NCBI RefSeq assembly: GCF_014164505.1
Contig: NZ_JACJFI010000004.1
Location: 1-59,760 of the forward strand
Length of the DNA stretch: 59,760 nt
Direction: 5' to 3'
Origin: Shewanella sp. SG41-4
GTDB taxonomy: Bacteria; Pseudomonadota; Gammaproteobacteria; Enterobacterales; Shewanellaceae
Shown here: piece after piece, positions 50,297 to 59,760 of the stretch
How positions within the stretch are numbered: the stretch's first letter is position 1
Layout of the letters: every line of letters begins with the position of its first letter
Position numbers and translations under genes: made by a program
Notes under the pieces: model-generated
What the model was told of the DNA's origin: nothing
What the model saw: only the letters and a program-made list of their open reading frames with translations
Database searches by the model: none

Positions 50297-50336
50297 ATGG
50301 ATCCCCGATAAGAGATCTCGAGGATGACGGGCTAGG
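50297..50336. repeat. Right-half fragment of the cloverleaf repeat
   Basis: From about 50297 the sequence GGATCC then CGAGGATGACG matches the right end of the units at 59.2 and 59.4 kb. The 180 bp before it (50114-50296) hold AGCGATA-rich sequence and no gene. Confidence 0.55.
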
Positions 50337-50579: not shown

Positions 50580-50700
50580 CGTCATTCCGGTAATGCTTTT
50601 AAGCCGGAATCCAGGTGTTAATGATTTAAAGCCACAACAATCAGTGACAACACCTAGGTCCGTCTCGGCAGCGTTTCTGAGCTGTAATAAAAGTATTTAA
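50580..50700. repeat. Decayed copy of the cloverleaf palindromic repeat
   Basis: It starts CGTCATTCCGGTAATGC and has the left arm (ATTCCGG/CCGGAAT) and the central pair CCAGGTGTT / AACACCTAGG; the right arm is degraded and the closing ATGACG is missing. Confidence 0.7.
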
Positions 50701-53717: not shown

Positions 53718-54593
53718 ATGCTTGACAACTTACTGCCATTTAAAAGTCATTATTTAGACCGTAACGGCAATAAACTCCATTACATAAACGAAGGCCAAGG
53801 CGAGCCTGTCGTTATGGTGCACGGTAATCCTAGCTGGAGTTACTACTATCGTAATTTAGTGAGCGCGTTGAGCGATCAGCATCAGTGTATTGTGCCAGAC
53901 CATATTGGTTGCGGCTTATCAGACAAACCCGATGATCCACAATACGATTACACCCTAAAAAACCGTATTGATGACTTAGAAGCGTTACTTGAAAGCTTAG
54001 ATGTAAAACAAAACATTACTCTAGTGGTACACGACTGGGGCGGTATGATTGGTATGGGCTTTGCGGCTCGTCACCCTGAGCGTATTAAACGCATTGTGTG
54101 TTTAAACACTGCCGCGTTTCATCTTCCTAAAACTAAGCCGTTCCCATGGGCATTATGGATTTGCCGCGAAACCGTATTAGGTACCTTGCTAGTACGTGGT
54201 TTAAATGCATTTTCGTCAGCGGCATCTTACGTAGGTGTTAAACGCAAACCTATGTCTAAAGAAGTGCGCGAAGCGTATGTAGCCCCATTTAACTCGTGGA
54301 AAAACCGTATTTCAACATTACGCTTTGTTCAAGACATTCCACTTAAGCCTGGTGATAGAAACTACGACTTAGTGACTAACATTGGCGATAGCTTAAGCGA
54401 GTTTGCTGACGTACCGACGTTGATTTGTTTTGGTTTACAAGATTTTGTGTTTGATAAGTATTTCTTAGAAGAATGGCGACAGCGAATGCCTCACGCCACG
54501 GTGCATGAGTTTGCTGACTGCGGTCATTACATTCTTGAAGATGCCAGCGACGAAGTGATTGGCTTAATTAAAGACTTTATCGCAAAAAATTAA
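53718..54593 (+). CDS. oleB: OleB, beta-lactone decarboxylase (alpha/beta hydrolase)
   Basis: 291 residues, haloalkane-dehalogenase-like. Oxyanion motif HGNPSWSYYYRN (about 34-45), nucleophile Asp106 in VVHDWGGMIGMG, and catalytic His in DCGHYILED near the end. OleB removes CO2 from the beta-lactone made by OleC and gives the cis-olefin. ACAGGATG precedes ATG 53718. A long hairpin lies between it and oleC. Confidence 0.94.
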   Translation: MLDNLLPFKSHYLDRNGNKLHYINEGQGEPVVMVHGNPSWSYYYRNLVSALSDQHQCIVPDHIGCGLSDKPDDPQYDYTLKNRIDDLEALLESLDVKQNITLVVHDWGGMIGMGFAARHPERIKRIVCLNTAAFHLPKTKPFPWALWICRETVLGTLLVRGLNAFSSAASYVGVKRKPMSKEVREAYVAPFNSWKNRISTLRFVQDIPLKPGDRNYDLVTNIGDSLSEFADVPTLICFGLQDFVFDKYFLEEWRQRMPHATVHEFADCGHYILEDASDEVIGLIKDFIAKN

Positions 54594-54600
54594 TTACACC

Positions 54601-54626
54601 CTAAAAGGCTCATTTGAGCCTTTTAG
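54601..54626 (+). terminator. Perfect 12-bp hairpin between oleB and oleC
   Basis: CTAAAAGGCTCA (54601-54612) pairs with TGAGCCTTTTAG (54615-54626) seven bases after the oleB stop. The only U-run is within the stem, so it may end part of the message or act in both directions, lowering oleCD relative to oleAB. Confidence 0.6.
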
Positions 54627-54712
54627 CTATTTAACCGTCTAAAATTATCTATATATTGGCGTTATTGTTAGCCAGCATATGCGTTCTTCACATTAGCCCA
54701 AAATGAAGCCAC

Positions 54713-56407
54713 ATGACTCAAACCTCTATACTTGCTAATGCCAATATCTGTCAGCACCTTAAAACGGCTGCACAAACAATGCCTGCCGATCTTGCAGTTG
54801 CTGTGCAGCACGCTAAACAAGGTAAATTCAGTTATCAGGAAATAGACTTTGTTACCTTACACCGTCAATCGGACATGATTGCCAAAGGGTTAATTCAGTA
54901 TGGTATTATGCGCGGCATGAAAGCCGTATTGATGGTCACACCCAGCATTGAGTTTTTCGCGTTAACGTTTGGCTTATTCAAAGCCGGTATTATCCCTATT
55001 TTAGTTGACCCAGGCATGGGTATCAAAAACCTTAAACAGTGTTTTGCAGAGTCGCAGCCGGATGCATTTATCGGCATTCCAAAAGCGCATATTGCTAGGC
55101 GTGTTCTGGGGTGGGGCAAAGGCAGTGTTAAGCAAGTGATTAATGTGGGTGGCTCGGGCATTCAACGCTGGTTAGCTAACGCAACAAGTTTAGAAACCAT
55201 TATCGAAATTGGCCGTAATGTTGCTCAACCTTGCGATATGGCACTACTAAAGCCAGACGACATGGCGGCTATTTTGTTTACAAGTGGTAGCACAGGTACC
55301 CCTAAAGGCGTGGTGTACAGCCATGGTATGTTTGAGGCACAAATAAGCGCACTTAAACACGATTATGGCATCACCCCTGGCGAGCGTGACTTAGCGACTT
55401 TCCCGCTGTTTTCATTATTTGGCCCAGCATTAGGCATGGCGTCAATTGTGCCAGACATGGATGCCAGCAAACCGATTACCGCGAATCCTGACAATTTGTT
55501 TGCCGCCATCGACAAATATCAATGCAGCAACATGTTTGTTAACCCAGCTTTATTAGAGCGACTAGGCCAAGCTGGTGAGCAAAGCCAGCATAAACTCACA
55601 AGTGTTAAGCGAGTGATATCAGCAGGTGCTCCGGCAACCATTAGCTCAATCAAGCGCTTTAGCAACATGCTCAATCCACAGGTTGAAGTACTTAATTCTT
55701 ATGGTGCGACAGAGTCGTTGCCTATCAGTATGATTGGCAGTCATGCTTTATTTAATACCAGTGACCTAACCGATCAAGGCAAAGGCATTTGTGTCGGTAA
55801 ACCGATATCGTCGGTGAGTGTAAACATTATTGCCATTACAGATTCAGCACAGCCTAATTGGTCTGATGTCAAAAAACTTTCCACCAACGAAATTGGCGAA
55901 ATTGTGGTGAGTGGCCCTATGGTCAGCCAAGCTTATTATCAACGTCAACATGCCACTGATGTAGCTAAAATTAATCACGGTGAACGTGTCATGCACCGCA
56001 TGGGAGACGTGGGTTATCTTGATGATGACGGCTTGTTGTGGATGTGTGGTCGTAAAGGACATATTGTAGATGCCACGCGCGGTAAGCAAAGATTAAAACG
56101 TTTTTATACGCTGCCCTGTGAGCGAGTGTTTAATACTCACACTCAAGTTAAACGTTCAGCCATTGTTGGTGTCAATGTGCACGGGGATATTGTGCCCGTT
56201 TTGTGTATCGAATTGCATAAAGATATTGTCTGCTCAACGGCTAAAGCGCTATTTCAAGAATTAACTCAATTGGCTGAGCTGCATCCACATACTCAAGGTA
56301 TCGGCCGTTTTTTAATTCATCCCGATTTCCCGGTCGATGTACGTCATAACGCAAAAATATTCAGAGAAAAGCTCGCCGTTTGGGCTCAAAAGCAATGGAA
56401 AGAATAA
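54713..56407 (+). CDS. oleC: OleC, beta-lactone synthetase (AMP-forming superfamily)
   Basis: 564 residues. The adenylate P-loop [10 protein letters not shown] is at 190-199, [10 protein letters not shown] and the later [20 protein letters not shown] complete the superfamily core. OleC uses ATP to close the 2-alkyl-3-hydroxyacid from OleD to a beta-lactone, which OleB decarboxylates. OleB, OleC and OleD are known to assemble together in other bacteria. It is separated from oleB by 119 bp with a hairpin and from oleD by 125 bp with a direct repeat. Confidence 0.94.
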
Positions 56408-56409
56408 GG

Positions 56410-56459
56410 CTGTACTTAGATTGTAGTAAGGCCGCTGTACTAAGACTGTAGTAAGGCCG
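56410..56459 (+). repeat. 25-bp tandem repeat between oleC and oleD
   Basis: CTGTACTTAGATTGTAGTAA plus GGCCG (56410-56434) is repeated at 56435-56459 with 23 of 25 bases the same. It begins three bases after the oleC stop. Confidence 0.8.
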
Positions 56460-56532
56460 TCATTCAGTAATGATAAGGCTCAGCATAACGTAATAATACG
56501 GCCGGCCCTAAAGTAACAACAAGGTATTAATA

Positions 56533-57582
56533 ATGAAGCTGACAGATTTACATCCCCTAGAGCAAACAGCGCTTACGCAATTAGCATTATCGGTCAACAA
56601 AGTGTTTGTTACCGGTGCTGGCGGCTTTTTAGGGTTTGCTATTTGTCAGCGTCTATTGTCTGCAGGTATTGAAGTCGTGGGGTTTGCCAGAGGCTATTAT
56701 CCTAAACTGGTCGAACTGGGTGTTGATATGCGTCAAGGTGATATCAGCGACTATGATTGTGTCAAACAAGCCATGCAAGGTTGTGACTTGGTGTTCCATG
56801 TGGCATCAAAGGCAGGCGTGTGGGGCAGTAAGCAAAGTTATTATTCGCCTAATGTCGACGGTGCAGCTAATATTGTTAATGCTTGTAAAGCGCTTAATAT
56901 TCAAAATCTTATTTATACCAGCACCCCAAGCGTAACCTTTGCTGGGCATGACGAAAACGGCATTAACGAGTCAGCACCTTACGCTGCTGAATACCTCAAT
57001 TATTATGGCGAATCGAAAGCCATTGCTGAACAAAACGTCCTTGCAGCGAATACTCCTCAACTTCGAACCACAGCCTTACGGCCGCATCTAATCTGGGGGC
57101 CAAACGATCCTCACCTTGTACCCCGAGTGATTGAACGTGCTAAAGCAGGGCGACTTAAGCTAGTTGGAAGTGAAGATAAACTGGTCGATACCATCTATGT
57201 TGATAACGCCGCCTACGCCCATATTTTGGCTGCCGTTGATTTAGTGGCAAACGCCAAGTGTGCCGGGAAAGCCTATTTTTTAAGCAACGATCAACCTATC
57301 ACCATGGCTGCCATGCTCAATAAAATTCTAGCCTGTGTAGATTTACCGCCAGTAACTAAGCGTGTGCCAGCAGGTGTCGCCTATGCCGCAGGCGTGGTGC
57401 TAGAAACGGTTTATGGCTTATTGAATAAGCAACAAGAACCCATCATGACCCGCTTTGTCGCAAGACAACTGTCGACCAGTCATTACTTTGATATCAGCGC
57501 AGCAAAACAAGACTTAGGCTACCAGCCGCTGGTGAGTATCGACCAAGGTATGCTAAAACTGAAGCAATCTTTGTCGAGTTAA
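56533..57582 (+). CDS. oleD: OleD, NAD(P)H-dependent 2-alkyl-3-ketoacid reductase
   Basis: 349 residues, extended SDR. VFVTGAGGFLGFAICQRLL (about 24-42), HVASKAGVWG and YYGESK (Tyr-x3-Lys, about 156-161) mark the 3-beta-HSD-like branch to which OleD belongs. It reduces the OleA product to the hydroxyacid used by OleC. Start ATG 56533 follows AACAAGGT. Last ole gene. Confidence 0.94.
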   Translation: MKLTDLHPLEQTALTQLALSVNKVFVTGAGGFLGFAICQRLLSAGIEVVGFARGYYPKLVELGVDMRQGDISDYDCVKQAMQGCDLVFHVASKAGVWGSKQSYYSPNVDGAANIVNACKALNIQNLIYTSTPSVTFAGHDENGINESAPYAAEYLNYYGESKAIAEQNVLAANTPQLRTTALRPHLIWGPNDPHLVPRVIERAKAGRLKLVGSEDKLVDTIYVDNAAYAHILAAVDLVANAKCAGKAYFLSNDQPITMAAMLNKILACVDLPPVTKRVPAGVAYAAGVVLETVYGLLNKQQEPIMTRFVARQLSTSHYFDISAAKQDLGYQPLVSIDQGMLKLKQSLSS

Positions 57583-57804
57583 TTGCTTACTATCACTTAT
57601 ATTCACCCTTGCTAACAATGCTCAAATAGATGATTTAAACGATGCAAACACCTGTTTGTAAAATTGTTTTTACATCACACTCATTGGTTATTTTTTAGCA
57701 ATCATTTGGTTATATCTTATTCCGCTGTATCTTAAATTCCGACCACCATAACAATAACCCCAAAGAGGGTAACAACTCATAACAAGGTGGCGCAGGGAGA
57801 CGCA

Positions 57805-58989
57805 ATGCAAGATAACAAGCACAGCACATGGAATTTAGCCACATTAGCCATTCATGGCGGCCATCAGCGCGAAGCCTTTGGCTCACTCACTACACCACTT
57901 TACCAAACAGCCACATTTGTGTTTGATACCGCAGAGCAGGGCGGTGCACGTTTTGCTGGTGAAGAGCCTGGCTATATTTATACTCGTTTGGGTAACCCAA
58001 CCACCGCAGAACTTGAGCGTAAAATGGCGCTACTAGAAGGCGCTGAAGATGCCGCAGCAACAGCATCTGGCATGGCAGCTGTGTCCAGTGCATTATTAAC
58101 GCACCTGCATGCAGGCGATCACTTAGTCGCATCTAAAGCTGTTTATGGTTGTACTTTTGCACTAATGACGACTCAGCTAACGCGTTTAGGCATTACATCA
58201 ACCCTGGTCGACTTTACCGATATCGCTGCAATTGAAGCTGCCATCAAGCCAAATACCAAAGTGTTGTTTTGTGAAACACCGGTAAACCCGCATTTACAAG
58301 TATTCGATCTTGCCGCCATGGCCAAAGTTGCCAAAGCACATAACTTAGTGTCAATCGTCGACAACACCTTTATGACACCACTATTGCAGCAGCCGCTAGC
58401 GATGGGCATCGACATGGTGATCCATAGTGCCACTAAGTACTTAAACGGTCACGGTGATGTAATTGCGGGTATTGTGTGTGGCAACGCCGAGCACATGCAC
58501 AGATTAAAATATGAAATCTTAAAAGACTTTGGTGGCGTGATTTCACCGCACGATGCATGGTTAATTTTACGCGGTTTAAAAACCCTAGACGTACGGTTAG
58601 CTCGTCACTGTGACAACGCCGAAGTGTTAGCTACATATTTAGATAAACACCCTAAATTTAGCCAAGTGTTTTACCCTGGTTTAGAACACCACCAAGGCCA
58701 TCGTTTCATCGGCAATCAAATGAAACGGGCAGGCGGTGTTATTGCTTTTGAACTAAAAGGCGATAAGCAAGACGCAATCAACTTTGTAAATCGTCTTAAG
58801 CTATTTACCATTGCAGTAAGCCTAGGTGACGCAGAATCATTGATCCAACACCCTGCATCAATGACCCATTCTCCTTACACACCAGAAGCGCGACTAGCCG
58901 CAGGCATTACCGACAACTTACTGCGTATCTCAGTAGGATTAGAGAATGTAGAAGATCTTATCGCAGATATAGAACAAGCGTTAAAATAG
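57805..58989 (+). CDS. mdeA: Methionine gamma-lyase (Cys/Met metabolism PLP enzyme)
   Basis: 394 residues. The PLP lysine is Lys211 in SATKYLNGHGD; Tyr114 and Cys116 in VYGCTFALM match the active-site Tyr and the diagnostic Cys116 of Pseudomonas methionine gamma-lyase, which favours that over cystathionine enzymes. It splits methionine to methanethiol, 2-oxobutyrate and ammonia; 2-oxobutyrate leads to propionyl-CoA. A GTG at 57787 is in frame, but ATG 57805 has AGGGAG upstream. No regulator gene is adjacent. Confidence 0.9.
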   Translation: MQDNKHSTWNLATLAIHGGHQREAFGSLTTPLYQTATFVFDTAEQGGARFAGEEPGYIYTRLGNPTTAELERKMALLEGAEDAAATASGMAAVSSALLTHLHAGDHLVASKAVYGCTFALMTTQLTRLGITSTLVDFTDIAAIEAAIKPNTKVLFCETPVNPHLQVFDLAAMAKVAKAHNLVSIVDNTFMTPLLQQPLAMGIDMVIHSATKYLNGHGDVIAGIVCGNAEHMHRLKYEILKDFGGVISPHDAWLILRGLKTLDVRLARHCDNAEVLATYLDKHPKFSQVFYPGLEHHQGHRFIGNQMKRAGGVIAFELKGDKQDAINFVNRLKLFTIAVSLGDAESLIQHPASMTHSPYTPEARLAAGITDNLLRISVGLENVEDLIADIEQALK

Positions 58990-59040
58990 ATGAAAAGCGT
59001 TGAGCTAAAGGTTAAAAACTTAATCAACGCTGTCAGCTCT

Positions 59041-59196
59041 AAATCGTTATTCCGGTAATGCGCGCTATTTCGCCATAACGGCAATCCACCCACTCGTCAT
59101 ATATGGACCCACCCTCTAGTCATATAAGTAATGCACACCCAAATTACGTCATTCCGGTAATGCGCGCTATTTCGCCATAATGGCAATCCACCCTTT
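59041..59196. repeat. Short-module repeats of the AB type after mdeA
   Basis: Modules with TTCCGGTAATGCGCGCTATT, then a GCCATAACGGCAATCCACCC-type part, occur at about 59049 and 59150; a CATATATGGACCCACCC segment lies between. They are variants of the 26- and 24-bp modules at 50.4 kb. Confidence 0.75.
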
Positions 59197-59340
59197 CGTC
59201 ATTCCGGTAACGCTTTTGAGCCGGAATCCAGGTGTTAATGTTTAAAGCCACAACAATCCAAGACAACACCTGGATCCGTCCCGGTAGTGTTTCTGAGCCG
59301 GGATTAAAGCATTCGAGGATGACGTGCGGGGGGAAGTAAT
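59197..59340. repeat. Cloverleaf-type palindromic repeat, copy 1
   Basis: 144 bp. Outer pair CGTCAT (59197) / ATGACG (59319-59324); left arm ATTCCGG (59201-59207) / CCGGAAT (59221-59227); central arm CCAGGTGTT (59228-59236) / AACACCTGG (59265-59273); right arm TCCCGG (59279-59284) / CCGGGA (59298-59303). The tail GTGCGGGGGGAAGTAAT is shared with copy 2. Confidence 0.88.
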
Positions 59341-59404
59341 ACTCGCTATTTCGCCACACCGGCAATCCACCCTCTCGTCATATAAGTAATGCACACCCAA
59401 ACTA

Positions 59405-59549
59405 CGTCATTCCGGTAACGCTTTTGAGCCGGAATCCAGGTGTTAATGCTTTAAAGTCACAGCAATCCAAGGCAACACCTGGATCCGTCCCGGTAGTGTT
59501 TCTGAGCCGGGATTAAAGCATTCGAGGATGACGTGCGGGGGGAAGTAAT
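59405..59549. repeat. Cloverleaf-type palindromic repeat, copy 2
   Basis: 145 bp, nearly identical to copy 1 (one extra base and a few changes). All four paired segments are kept. AB-type modules lie between the copies (59341-59404) and after this one (59550-59636). Confidence 0.88.
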
Positions 59550-59636
59550 GCGCACTCACACTTCATTCCGGTAATGCGCGCTATTTCGCCATAACGGCAA
59601 TCCACCCTCTCGTCATATAAGTAATGCACACCCAAA

Positions 59637-59760
59637 TTACGTCATATATGGACCCACCCGTTTTGCAAGTGATTTCGAAGCGTTGATAAACAAATTCATT
59701 GCCTTCATATATCCGGCTTGTGAACCGGGTGTTTTATATACCCGCAGCCCTAATGCAATT
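59637..59760 (-). CDS. Unidentified ORF, C-terminal 40 residues (cut by window edge)
   Basis: On the minus strand the frame from the window end to TAA at 59637-59639 is open and reads like protein: GLRVYKTPGSQAGYMKAMN then LFINASKSLAKRVGPYMT. I do not recognise a family. The last few codons (GPYMT) lie in a CATATATGGACCCACCC segment that also occurs at about 59099 in the repeat array, so the ORF's end is built from repeat sequence. It could be a gene whose tail was replaced, or part of a repeat-borne element. Confidence 0.35.
   Translation of the reverse strand, partial: IALGLRVYKTPGSQAGYMKAMNLFINASKSLAKRVGPYMT

Follow-up and report, generated by a model that had tools for sequence, protein, structure and literature searches.

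Results

A Repeat Array at the End of the Contig

The analyzed stretch of 59,760 nucleotides from Shewanella sp. SG41-4, here called the window, ends within an array of palindromic repeats. Upstream of the array a gene encoding 400 amino acids is located on the plus strand (57787..58989), which we take to be methionine gamma-lyase-like (mgl-like), and the preceding genes at 53718-57582, for a hydrolase, an AMP-ligase and a dehydrogenase/epimerase, look to us like part of an oleBCD cluster for long-chain olefins. The array itself (59042..59760) is a mosaic of two dimers and of linkers with truncated REP-like pieces, and it is cut off by the contig end. The first-pass annotation had described two near-identical copies of a cloverleaf-shaped palindrome of 144-145 bp in this region. 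Both copies were found, with 97% identity, at 59197-59324 (128 bp) and 59405-59533 (129 bp) on the plus strand; the larger size had included linker sequence shared by the two.

The two copies are inverted dimers of CGTC-tagged REPs whose right partner contains a third REP hairpin, and their tags point outward at both ends. Copy 1 begins with the left (L-type) REP on the plus strand (59197..59227), which is composed of the CGTC tag, the arm ATTCCGG, 13 nt and the arm CCGGAAT. It is followed by the central stem CCAGGTGTT / AACACCTGG with the enclosed spacer (59228..59273, plus strand) and by the extra hairpin (59278..59304, plus strand), a tagless L-type REP stem-loop of the form GTCCCGG-loop-CCGGGAT that lies inside the right REP. 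The remnant of the right (R-type) REP occupies 59305..59324 on the minus strand and ends in the outward tag, read as ATGACG on the plus strand. In copy 2 the left REP (59405..59435, plus), the extra hairpin (59487..59513, plus) and the right REP remnant (59514..59533, minus) are arranged likewise. A third, decayed copy of the same form is located at 50580..50697 (plus strand) and a single R-type CGTC REP at 50300..50329 (minus strand). Within the whole draft genome (808 contigs) 26 blast matches to the unit were detected, seven of which cover most of it.

Truncated REPs, consisting of the tag and the 5' arm and ending in the loop, occur in tandem in the linkers of the window (59049-59078, 59151-59180 and 59565-59594) as well as at two further loci (L109 and L350). 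Half-REP tandems like these also adjoin the nuclease unit of an unrelated genome (G211, see below). For the tandem half-REPs the count was 11 half versus 89 full REPs, and these truncated forms could be scars of cutting at the loop.

Anatomy and Distribution of the Element

The simple element, termed form A, measures 84-124 bp in 40 aligned sequences and is an inverted heterodimer, in which a left REP is joined to a different right REP with the tags facing outward and the inner ends complementary. The left REP reads CGTC, ATTCCGG, 12 to 14 nt, CCGGAAT and CCAGGTGTT; after the spacer the right REP reads AACACCTGG, ATCCCTGA, 5 to 9 nt, TCAGGGAT and GACG. Form B, which is the form in the window, is form A plus the GTCCCGG-loop-CCGGGAT hairpin within the right REP. 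Because the loop of the extra hairpin in the window genome, TAGTGTTTCTGAG, is similar to that of the left REP, TAACGCTTTTGAG, we interpret the extra arm as a left-type REP hairpin that lacks its tag and has the direct orientation. The left and right arms of the supposed cloverleaf are thus indeed related, as had been noticed from the sequence, in that they are the same REP stem-loop; the two stand in direct and not in inverted orientation.

Exact form B was found in five of 129 genomes of the genus with 28 sites in total, and named holders are S. saliphila, S. algicola, S. metallivivens and S. inventionis; the genome G085 carries a variant of it. A search of named genomes with the form-B pattern returned 26 stretches, 15 of them in Shewanella, and the other 11, with one match each outside the genus, are probably chance matches. 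In two genomes (G068 and G103) form A and form B units have the type of left REP and spacer in common by eye, which points to gain or loss of the extra hairpin in situ.

The element is likewise repeated in other Shewanella species, as had been expected of it: the sequence search matched the unit in named records and in 27 of 117 genus genomes. The exact left-hairpin pattern, GTCATTCCGG and CCGGAATC separated by 5-16 nt, was also present in 27 of the 117, the two richest genomes having 112 and 48 sites, and the union of both sets comprises 30 repeat-bearing genomes. No exact site was detected in 90 of the 117, and the copy number varies strongly among species.

Folding and Covariation

The dimers could be parsed into 55 haplotypes, ten of which are form B. 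For the covariation analysis 40 of the other 45 were used (up to 126 bp, the five longer ones being left out), derived from 13 genomes. Compensatory double changes were observed at 13 of the 24 pairs of the two REP hairpins and the inner stem (64 cells), a value reached in 0 of 500 shuffles; related sequences without structure can surpass such shuffles, and slid controls were also far lower for the hairpins and the inner stem. In these helices 92.2% of the cells are paired. The covarying cells are distributed over the right hairpin (32), the inner, central stem (29, with double changes in seven of its nine pairs) and the left hairpin (3), which varies little and is paired in 98.2% over the 40 dimers. 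Neither of the two outcomes named beforehand as speaking against the structure, namely arms without compensatory changes or a unit confined to the window, occurred.

The outer closing stem, which had been proposed together with a left, a central and a right arm, gave a different result. Double changes were found at one of its nine pairs in the 40 form-A dimers, which was matched by 434 of 500 shuffles, and the outer stem was rejected as a maintained helix on these grounds. It is a by-product of the two tags standing in inverted orientation.

Folding of copy 1 with nine linker bases (59197-59333) surpassed 199 of 200 shuffles for RNA (z -2.6) and 200 of 200 for DNA (z -3.2). All of the proposed pairings exist; in the predicted optimum of a single copy, which differs from the four-way shape, the outer, central and right helices form and the left arm has a probability of 0.02 or less. 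The RNA optima of the two copies amount to -46.8 and -49.6 kcal/mol versus -41.5 and -44.3 kcal/mol with the cloverleaf helices enforced, a gap of 5.3 kcal/mol. From 13 form-B copies RNAalifold derives the cloverleaf as consensus, with double changes in 0 of its 26 pairs. Since covariation is found in the hairpins and the inner stem and none supports the outer stem, the cloverleaf is a possible fold without evident selection, and it is the separate hairpins that are evidently selected. A search of 58900-59760 against Rfam gave no family at the gathering score and two sub-threshold matches only.

Assignment to the CGTC-Tagged REPs

The CGTC-tagged REP superfamily was described by Di Nocera, De Gregorio and Rocco (2013; PMC3733652). 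According to the consulted part of this survey these REPs occur mainly in Alphaproteobacteria, have loops of 4-5 nt (other lengths in three cases), are mostly arranged as inverted dimers and rarely form clusters; Neisseria dRS3 and Rickettsia RPE-4 and RPE-6 are classed among them. None was flanked by a tyrosine transposase gene, a dedicated transposase seems to be lacking and the question of their mobilizer was left open there, while Shewanella is mentioned in that part for GTAG repeats only.

The class is marked by an unpaired CGTC tag at one end, with TGTC and CCTC as variants. The GTC of the tag is present in 40 of 40 dimers, GTC being also part of the search pattern. Its preceding base is C or T at the left end of 37 of the 40 dimers; at the right end 39 of the 40 have G or A, which corresponds to C or T on the other strand. 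Stems of 8-9 bp with an AT start are characteristic of the class; here the left stem has 7 bp with an eighth C-G or T-G pair in 39 of 40 dimers, the right stem has 8 bp, and the stems start with A (or G) followed by T. The left stem is followed on its 3' side by CCA in 28 of 40 dimers, by CTA in six and by other triplets in six. The loops exceed the 4-5 nt of the class, with 12-14 nt between the 7-bp left arms and 5-9 nt between the right arms. Inverted heterodimers are common, and so are large clusters, at loci that were picked for clusters. Assignment to the GTAG REPs of the REPIN/RAYT kind fails, for the tag is CGTC and no RAYT flanked by the window repeat was found among the 20 Y1 loci sampled.

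The window repeat is therefore a long-loop, three-hairpin variant of the CGTC REP class, a new variant outside the four published families. It has in common with the CGTC REPs, as far as the consulted part of the survey describes them, a CGTC or TGTC tag, AT-first stems, a CCA-type tail, inverted heterodimers with complementary spacer ends and no adjoining RAYT. It differs from them in its longer loops and the third embedded hairpin of form B and, at the loci picked for clusters, in the large size of these. Compared with the window repeat, dRS3 and RPE-4 / RPE-6 have shorter loops and different arm sequences. The suggestion that the four-way fold goes beyond REP elements was consequently dropped in favor of a CGTC-tagged REP dimer with one extra REP hairpin.

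A Small GIY-YIG Gene within the Orthologous Arrays

The site downstream of the mgl-like gene was compared in the best 30 of 118 genomes having it. CGTC REPs were detected there in ten of the 30, all among the 13 genomes with at least 90% identity of the mgl-like protein. In the remaining three of this group (G044, G492 and G025) the detector reported no CGTC REPs, although one decayed piece can be seen in G492; just two were counted in G098. In seven of the 30 genomes (G491, G496, G085, G095, G049, G056 and G105) the orthologous array contains a gene for a GIY-YIG protein of about 93-95 amino acids, which matches Pfam PF01541 with 54.4 and 64.4 bits in the two that were scanned (cut-off 22.6). 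In S. metallivivens (L211) this gene is located between a REP on the plus strand (585-616) and one on the minus strand (1049-1077). The corresponding part of the window genome is interrupted, as the assembly breaks between the window contig (C444) and the contig C109; these look like two sides of one array because C109 carries the neighbor gene lying beyond the array in relatives. A REP-type GIY-YIG gene was not found in this draft assembly, whose contigs break inside the array, with the profile match at 1e-12, which counts against the nuclease as the agent that moves the repeats; the genome has only a distant GIY-YIG gene with 38% identity.

Within the genus the close nuclease group (above 90 bits) is present in 21 of 129 genomes, and one locus per genome was inspected. 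In 20 of these 21 loci a CGTC REP lies within 250 bp on at least one side, and an inward-facing pair flanks the gene in 14 loci within 250 bp and in 15 within 300 bp. The pair is missing in G035, G020, G081, G058, G106 and G010, of which G058 has no REP at all. None of nine more distant Shewanella GIY-YIG loci, whose genes we presume to be YhbQ-like, has an inward pair, and in this they differ from the REP-type nuclease. Nuclease and repeat occur together in 15 genomes of the genus, the repeat alone in 15, the nuclease alone in four and neither in 83 (p = 1e-7). The four nuclease-only genomes (G089, G082, G081 and G115) carry other types of CGTC REPs at the gene. That the nuclease is absent from 15 of the 30 repeat-bearing Shewanella genomes is a further point against a nuclease that mobilizes the repeats.

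GIY-YIG Loci across the Class and the Phylum

A profile built from 20 Shewanella proteins (E 1e-12) detected the nuclease group in 76 of 369 genomes of the class and in 102 of 398 genomes of the phylum. The loci inspected were the best-scoring 30 and 29, respectively, and not a random draw; one of the 29 is Shewanella G020, counted above as lacking the pair. In 20 of the 30 class and 22 of the 29 phylum loci (42 of 59) the gene is flanked within 250 bp by CGTC REPs forming an inward pair. With five permuted tags and the same detector, 0 of 30 class loci and 0 or 1 of 29 phylum loci were found for each. Among control ORFs of at least 150 amino acids in twenty 20-kb windows of such genomes, 0 of 260 had the inward pair and 22 had a REP on one side, and random gene-sized placements gave 20 inward pairs in 10,000.

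The REPs on the two sides of one gene are similar to one another. Over the 42 loci the upstream and downstream arms match at 0.872 versus 0.738 when shuffled, and with the commonest arm removed at 0.832 versus 0.651 (23 loci), in both cases with 0 of 10,000 shuffles reaching the observed value. From the genome G869 five of six genes were fetched, four with an inward pair and one with none. Four arm types are represented among these pairs, each identical or nearly so on both sides of the gene. Co-occurrence was also observed at the level of the class for the Shewanella-type pattern and the nuclease (36/33/40/260 genomes, p = 4e-11).

Of 33 plasmid-collection records with a nuclease match ten named ones were opened. 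Six have an inward pair within 400 bp, namely those of A. lipoferum 4B, N. aromaticivorans, N. gonorrhoeae, A. caviae, Rhizobium sp. CIAT894 and Shinella sp.; within this distance no inward pair was found in the records of S. meliloti, Photobacterium, Planktothrix and R. tumorigenes. In N. gonorrhoeae the repeats flanking the GIY-YIG frame are CGTC repeats of the CGTCATTCCCGCG type, a likeness to dRS3. On plasmid AZO_p3 of A. lipoferum 4B (L370) the gene is located between sufB and sufC of the suf cluster, with CGTC REP dimers on both sides. On plasmid p1 of Planktothrix agardhii (L376) a member of the group lies between a MmeI-type restriction gene and drmA of DISARM, and CGTC REPs are absent from the stretch examined there. 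The loci in which the inward pair is missing within the limits used, 17 of 59 in class and phylum, four of ten named and six of 21 in Shewanella, count against a nuclease that depends on such pairs for moving the repeats.

The Nuclease Protein

The encoded protein is a bare nuclease domain and looks conserved by selection, judged from its sequences: at each of the residues Y8, Y19, G21, R29, H33, E66 and N85 at most one of the 79 aligned proteins deviates, and an internal stop is found in one of the 59 class and phylum frames. The catalytic roles of these motif positions are known from other GIY-YIG enzymes. A search of the nuclease profile against PDB sequences gave no match at 1e-3. The predicted fold (pLDDT 92.9) is most similar among solved structures to UPF0213 BH0048 (1zg2, E 2.8e-4, TM 0.58), with a weaker match to Slx1 (6seh, E 0.025, TM 0.61), which is a branched-DNA nuclease; at the level of the model, then, the nuclease would resemble the UPF0213 / YhbQ-like proteins and Slx1. 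The only annotation given to the group in the records examined is 'GIY-YIG nuclease family protein'.

Gene-Bearing Units and Gene-Less Dimers

Gene-less dimers of G049 and G103 share an identical inner right end, CAAGGTCAACAGAAACACCTGG, with the gene unit of G491. When the 13 bases inside the stem were compared with the G491 unit, 14 of 35 dimers reached an identity of 77% or more, versus three of 5000 random words from the same arrays. The five other units gave between 0 and 13 of 35 dimers, with 0 for G085. Right ends were closer to the dimers of their own genome in G095 (0.77 versus 0.63) and not in G105 (0.68 versus 0.70), and the ends of the G049 and G035 units match neither own-genome dimers nor those of other genomes, which counts against a spread of the dimers by the gene-bearing unit.

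In G211 the homology of three of the four fetched copies stops 6-10 bases past the outer end of the downstream REP, and the fourth has diverged. A usable REP pair is lacking in one of the five G869 paralogs and in one of the four G211 copies, and this again argues against the nuclease as mobilizer. So does G143, where a partial GIY-YIG gene with a CGTC REP occurs in three dispersed and nearly identical copies (L354, L355 and L356); these are bounded by long imperfect inverted repeats starting near TAGGGCG and not by the REP. Because the G143 copies end in these longer inverted repeats, not every copy is delimited by REPs. Compared with classical MITEs of DDE transposons, some ends are common to the dimers and a GIY-YIG unit; inspection of G143 and G211 for target-site duplications gave no clear case.

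Y1 Transposases

A RAYT transposase had been proposed as a possible partner of the repeat, and 20 Y1 transposase loci were sampled, 17 of them from repeat-bearing genomes. The exact repeat head was present in 0 of 20 loci, and an inward CGTC REP pair, searched with a looser detector, likewise in 0 of 20, in agreement with the lack of tyrosine transposases at CGTC REPs. In six of the 20 a loose detector found a CGTC REP-like site of some kind no farther than 700 bp from the Y1 domain. Full-length Y1 loci carry mostly GGGGTCAGAGT-type or GTAG-type repeats. The Shewanella loci L086-L105 thus represent two additional systems resembling REPs, in which Y1 proteins of about 230 amino acids are flanked by GGGGTCAGAGT-type repeats and those of about 155 amino acids by GTAGGAGCGCG-type REPs. 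Repeat-bearing genomes have Y1 genes more often than the others (22 of 27 versus 46 of 90, p = 0.007), and a Y1 match is absent from five repeat-bearing genomes, including the two richest. The sole Y1 match of the window genome (L027) is a truncated gene, by score of the IS200 kind. A RAYT partner was rejected on the basis of the 20 loci and the five genomes without Y1, and the GIY-YIG nuclease is the associated gene instead.

Discussion

The small GIY-YIG gene is a good candidate for what spreads the CGTC REPs. We consider it rather probable that the window copies are non-autonomous elements of a mobile type, passive hairpin substrates of a GIY-YIG nuclease that would spread REPs and dimers, a reading in which cutting and movement are inferred; the earlier idea of a transposable element is in this respect plausible. 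A broader proposal, which we put forward tentatively, is that CGTC REPs may be the ends of a widespread minimal mobile element of the order [CGTC-REP] gene [REP-CGTC] with a GIY-YIG protein of about 93 residues, the REP dimers being its gene-less derivatives. The nuclease would recognize the REP hairpin or cruciform as a branched structure; recognition of hairpin or cruciform together with the CGTC tag is the simplest idea because the nuclease has no separate DNA-binding domain. It might then cut at or near the tag or the loop, and repair of such cuts from other REP copies would carry REPs and dimers to new places and expand the arrays. Through such repair one REP could also acquire an internal hairpin of the kind seen in form B. 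The window copies would accordingly relate to the gene-bearing unit as REPINs do to RAYTs.

As the main rival we consider a homing endonuclease: the GIY-YIG gene would have inserted into existing REP dimers as its landing site, the dimers being old or spread by other means; both this explanation and a nuclease that mobilizes the dimers make the REPs the substrate. GIY-YIG is a classical homing nuclease domain, half of the repeat-bearing genomes of the genus are without the gene, and the gene occupies the position of the dimer spacer together with the inner ends of the dimer, as insertion into a dimer would also produce. Yet the two REPs at one gene are alike and the four paralogs of one genome have four REP types, both of which fit a unit moving with its own ends, and gene presence tracks REP presence. 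These points leave room for homing into dimers of several types, and on balance we regard homing as unlikely. The idea that a RAYT or other Y1 tyrosine transposase mobilizes the repeat, as for GTAG REPs, draws on the higher frequency of Y1 genes in repeat-bearing genomes and on the six loci with a loosely defined CGTC site; with neither the exact head nor an inward pair at any sampled locus, flanks of mostly GGGGTCAGAGT or GTAG type and the two richest genomes among those devoid of Y1, it is extremely improbable.

Two further explanations place the function in the structure itself. At the 3' ends of genes the unit could serve as a transcription attenuator or a structured RNA, that is as an mRNA stabilizer or terminator, with spread being secondary, which would agree with the covarying hairpins, the stable RNA fold and the array downstream of what we take to be an mgl-like gene. 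Hairpins of single-strand DNA predict the covariation equally, however, no Rfam family was found at threshold in the region, and the strongly differing copy number among species with 90 of 117 genomes free of exact sites speaks against it, so that such a role appears very improbable. That the whole cloverleaf with outer stem and three arms is the functional fold of form B is, in our view, very improbable: the RNAalifold consensus and the high probability of the outer stem in single copies are set against the lack of double changes in the 26 consensus pairs, an outer stem without covariation in the 40 simple dimers, an optimum without the left arm and the restriction of form B to five of 129 genomes.

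The arrangement resembles the REPIN/RAYT system of the GTAG REPs in its short inverted REP pairs, in the existence of gene-bearing and gene-less forms and in a nuclease gene with its own matching repeats. The comparison is drawn in part from the 2013 survey. The systems differ in that REPINs and RAYTs have a GTAG tag and an HUH tyrosine transposase, whereas here a CGTC tag is combined with a GIY-YIG nuclease. Among the open-access matches listed, no literature was found that links GIY-YIG with REP, RAYT, REPIN, MITE or palindromic repeats. The consulted part of the CGTC REP survey (PMC3733652) makes no mention of a GIY-YIG gene partner such as the one found here, and a term search of a further article (PMC12306157) gave no occurrence of GIY, RAYT or Shewanella.

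A nuclease located between resembling CGTC REPs in many proteobacteria is a concrete and testable answer to the question of the mobilizer raised by the 2013 survey. The link to the nuclease would explain some of the common unexplained palindromes of bacteria and would give a role to the large group of proteins annotated 'GIY-YIG nuclease family protein'. If true, it would represent a counterpart to REPIN-RAYT, in which a structure-selective GIY-YIG nuclease takes the place of the HUH transposase and acts on REP hairpins.
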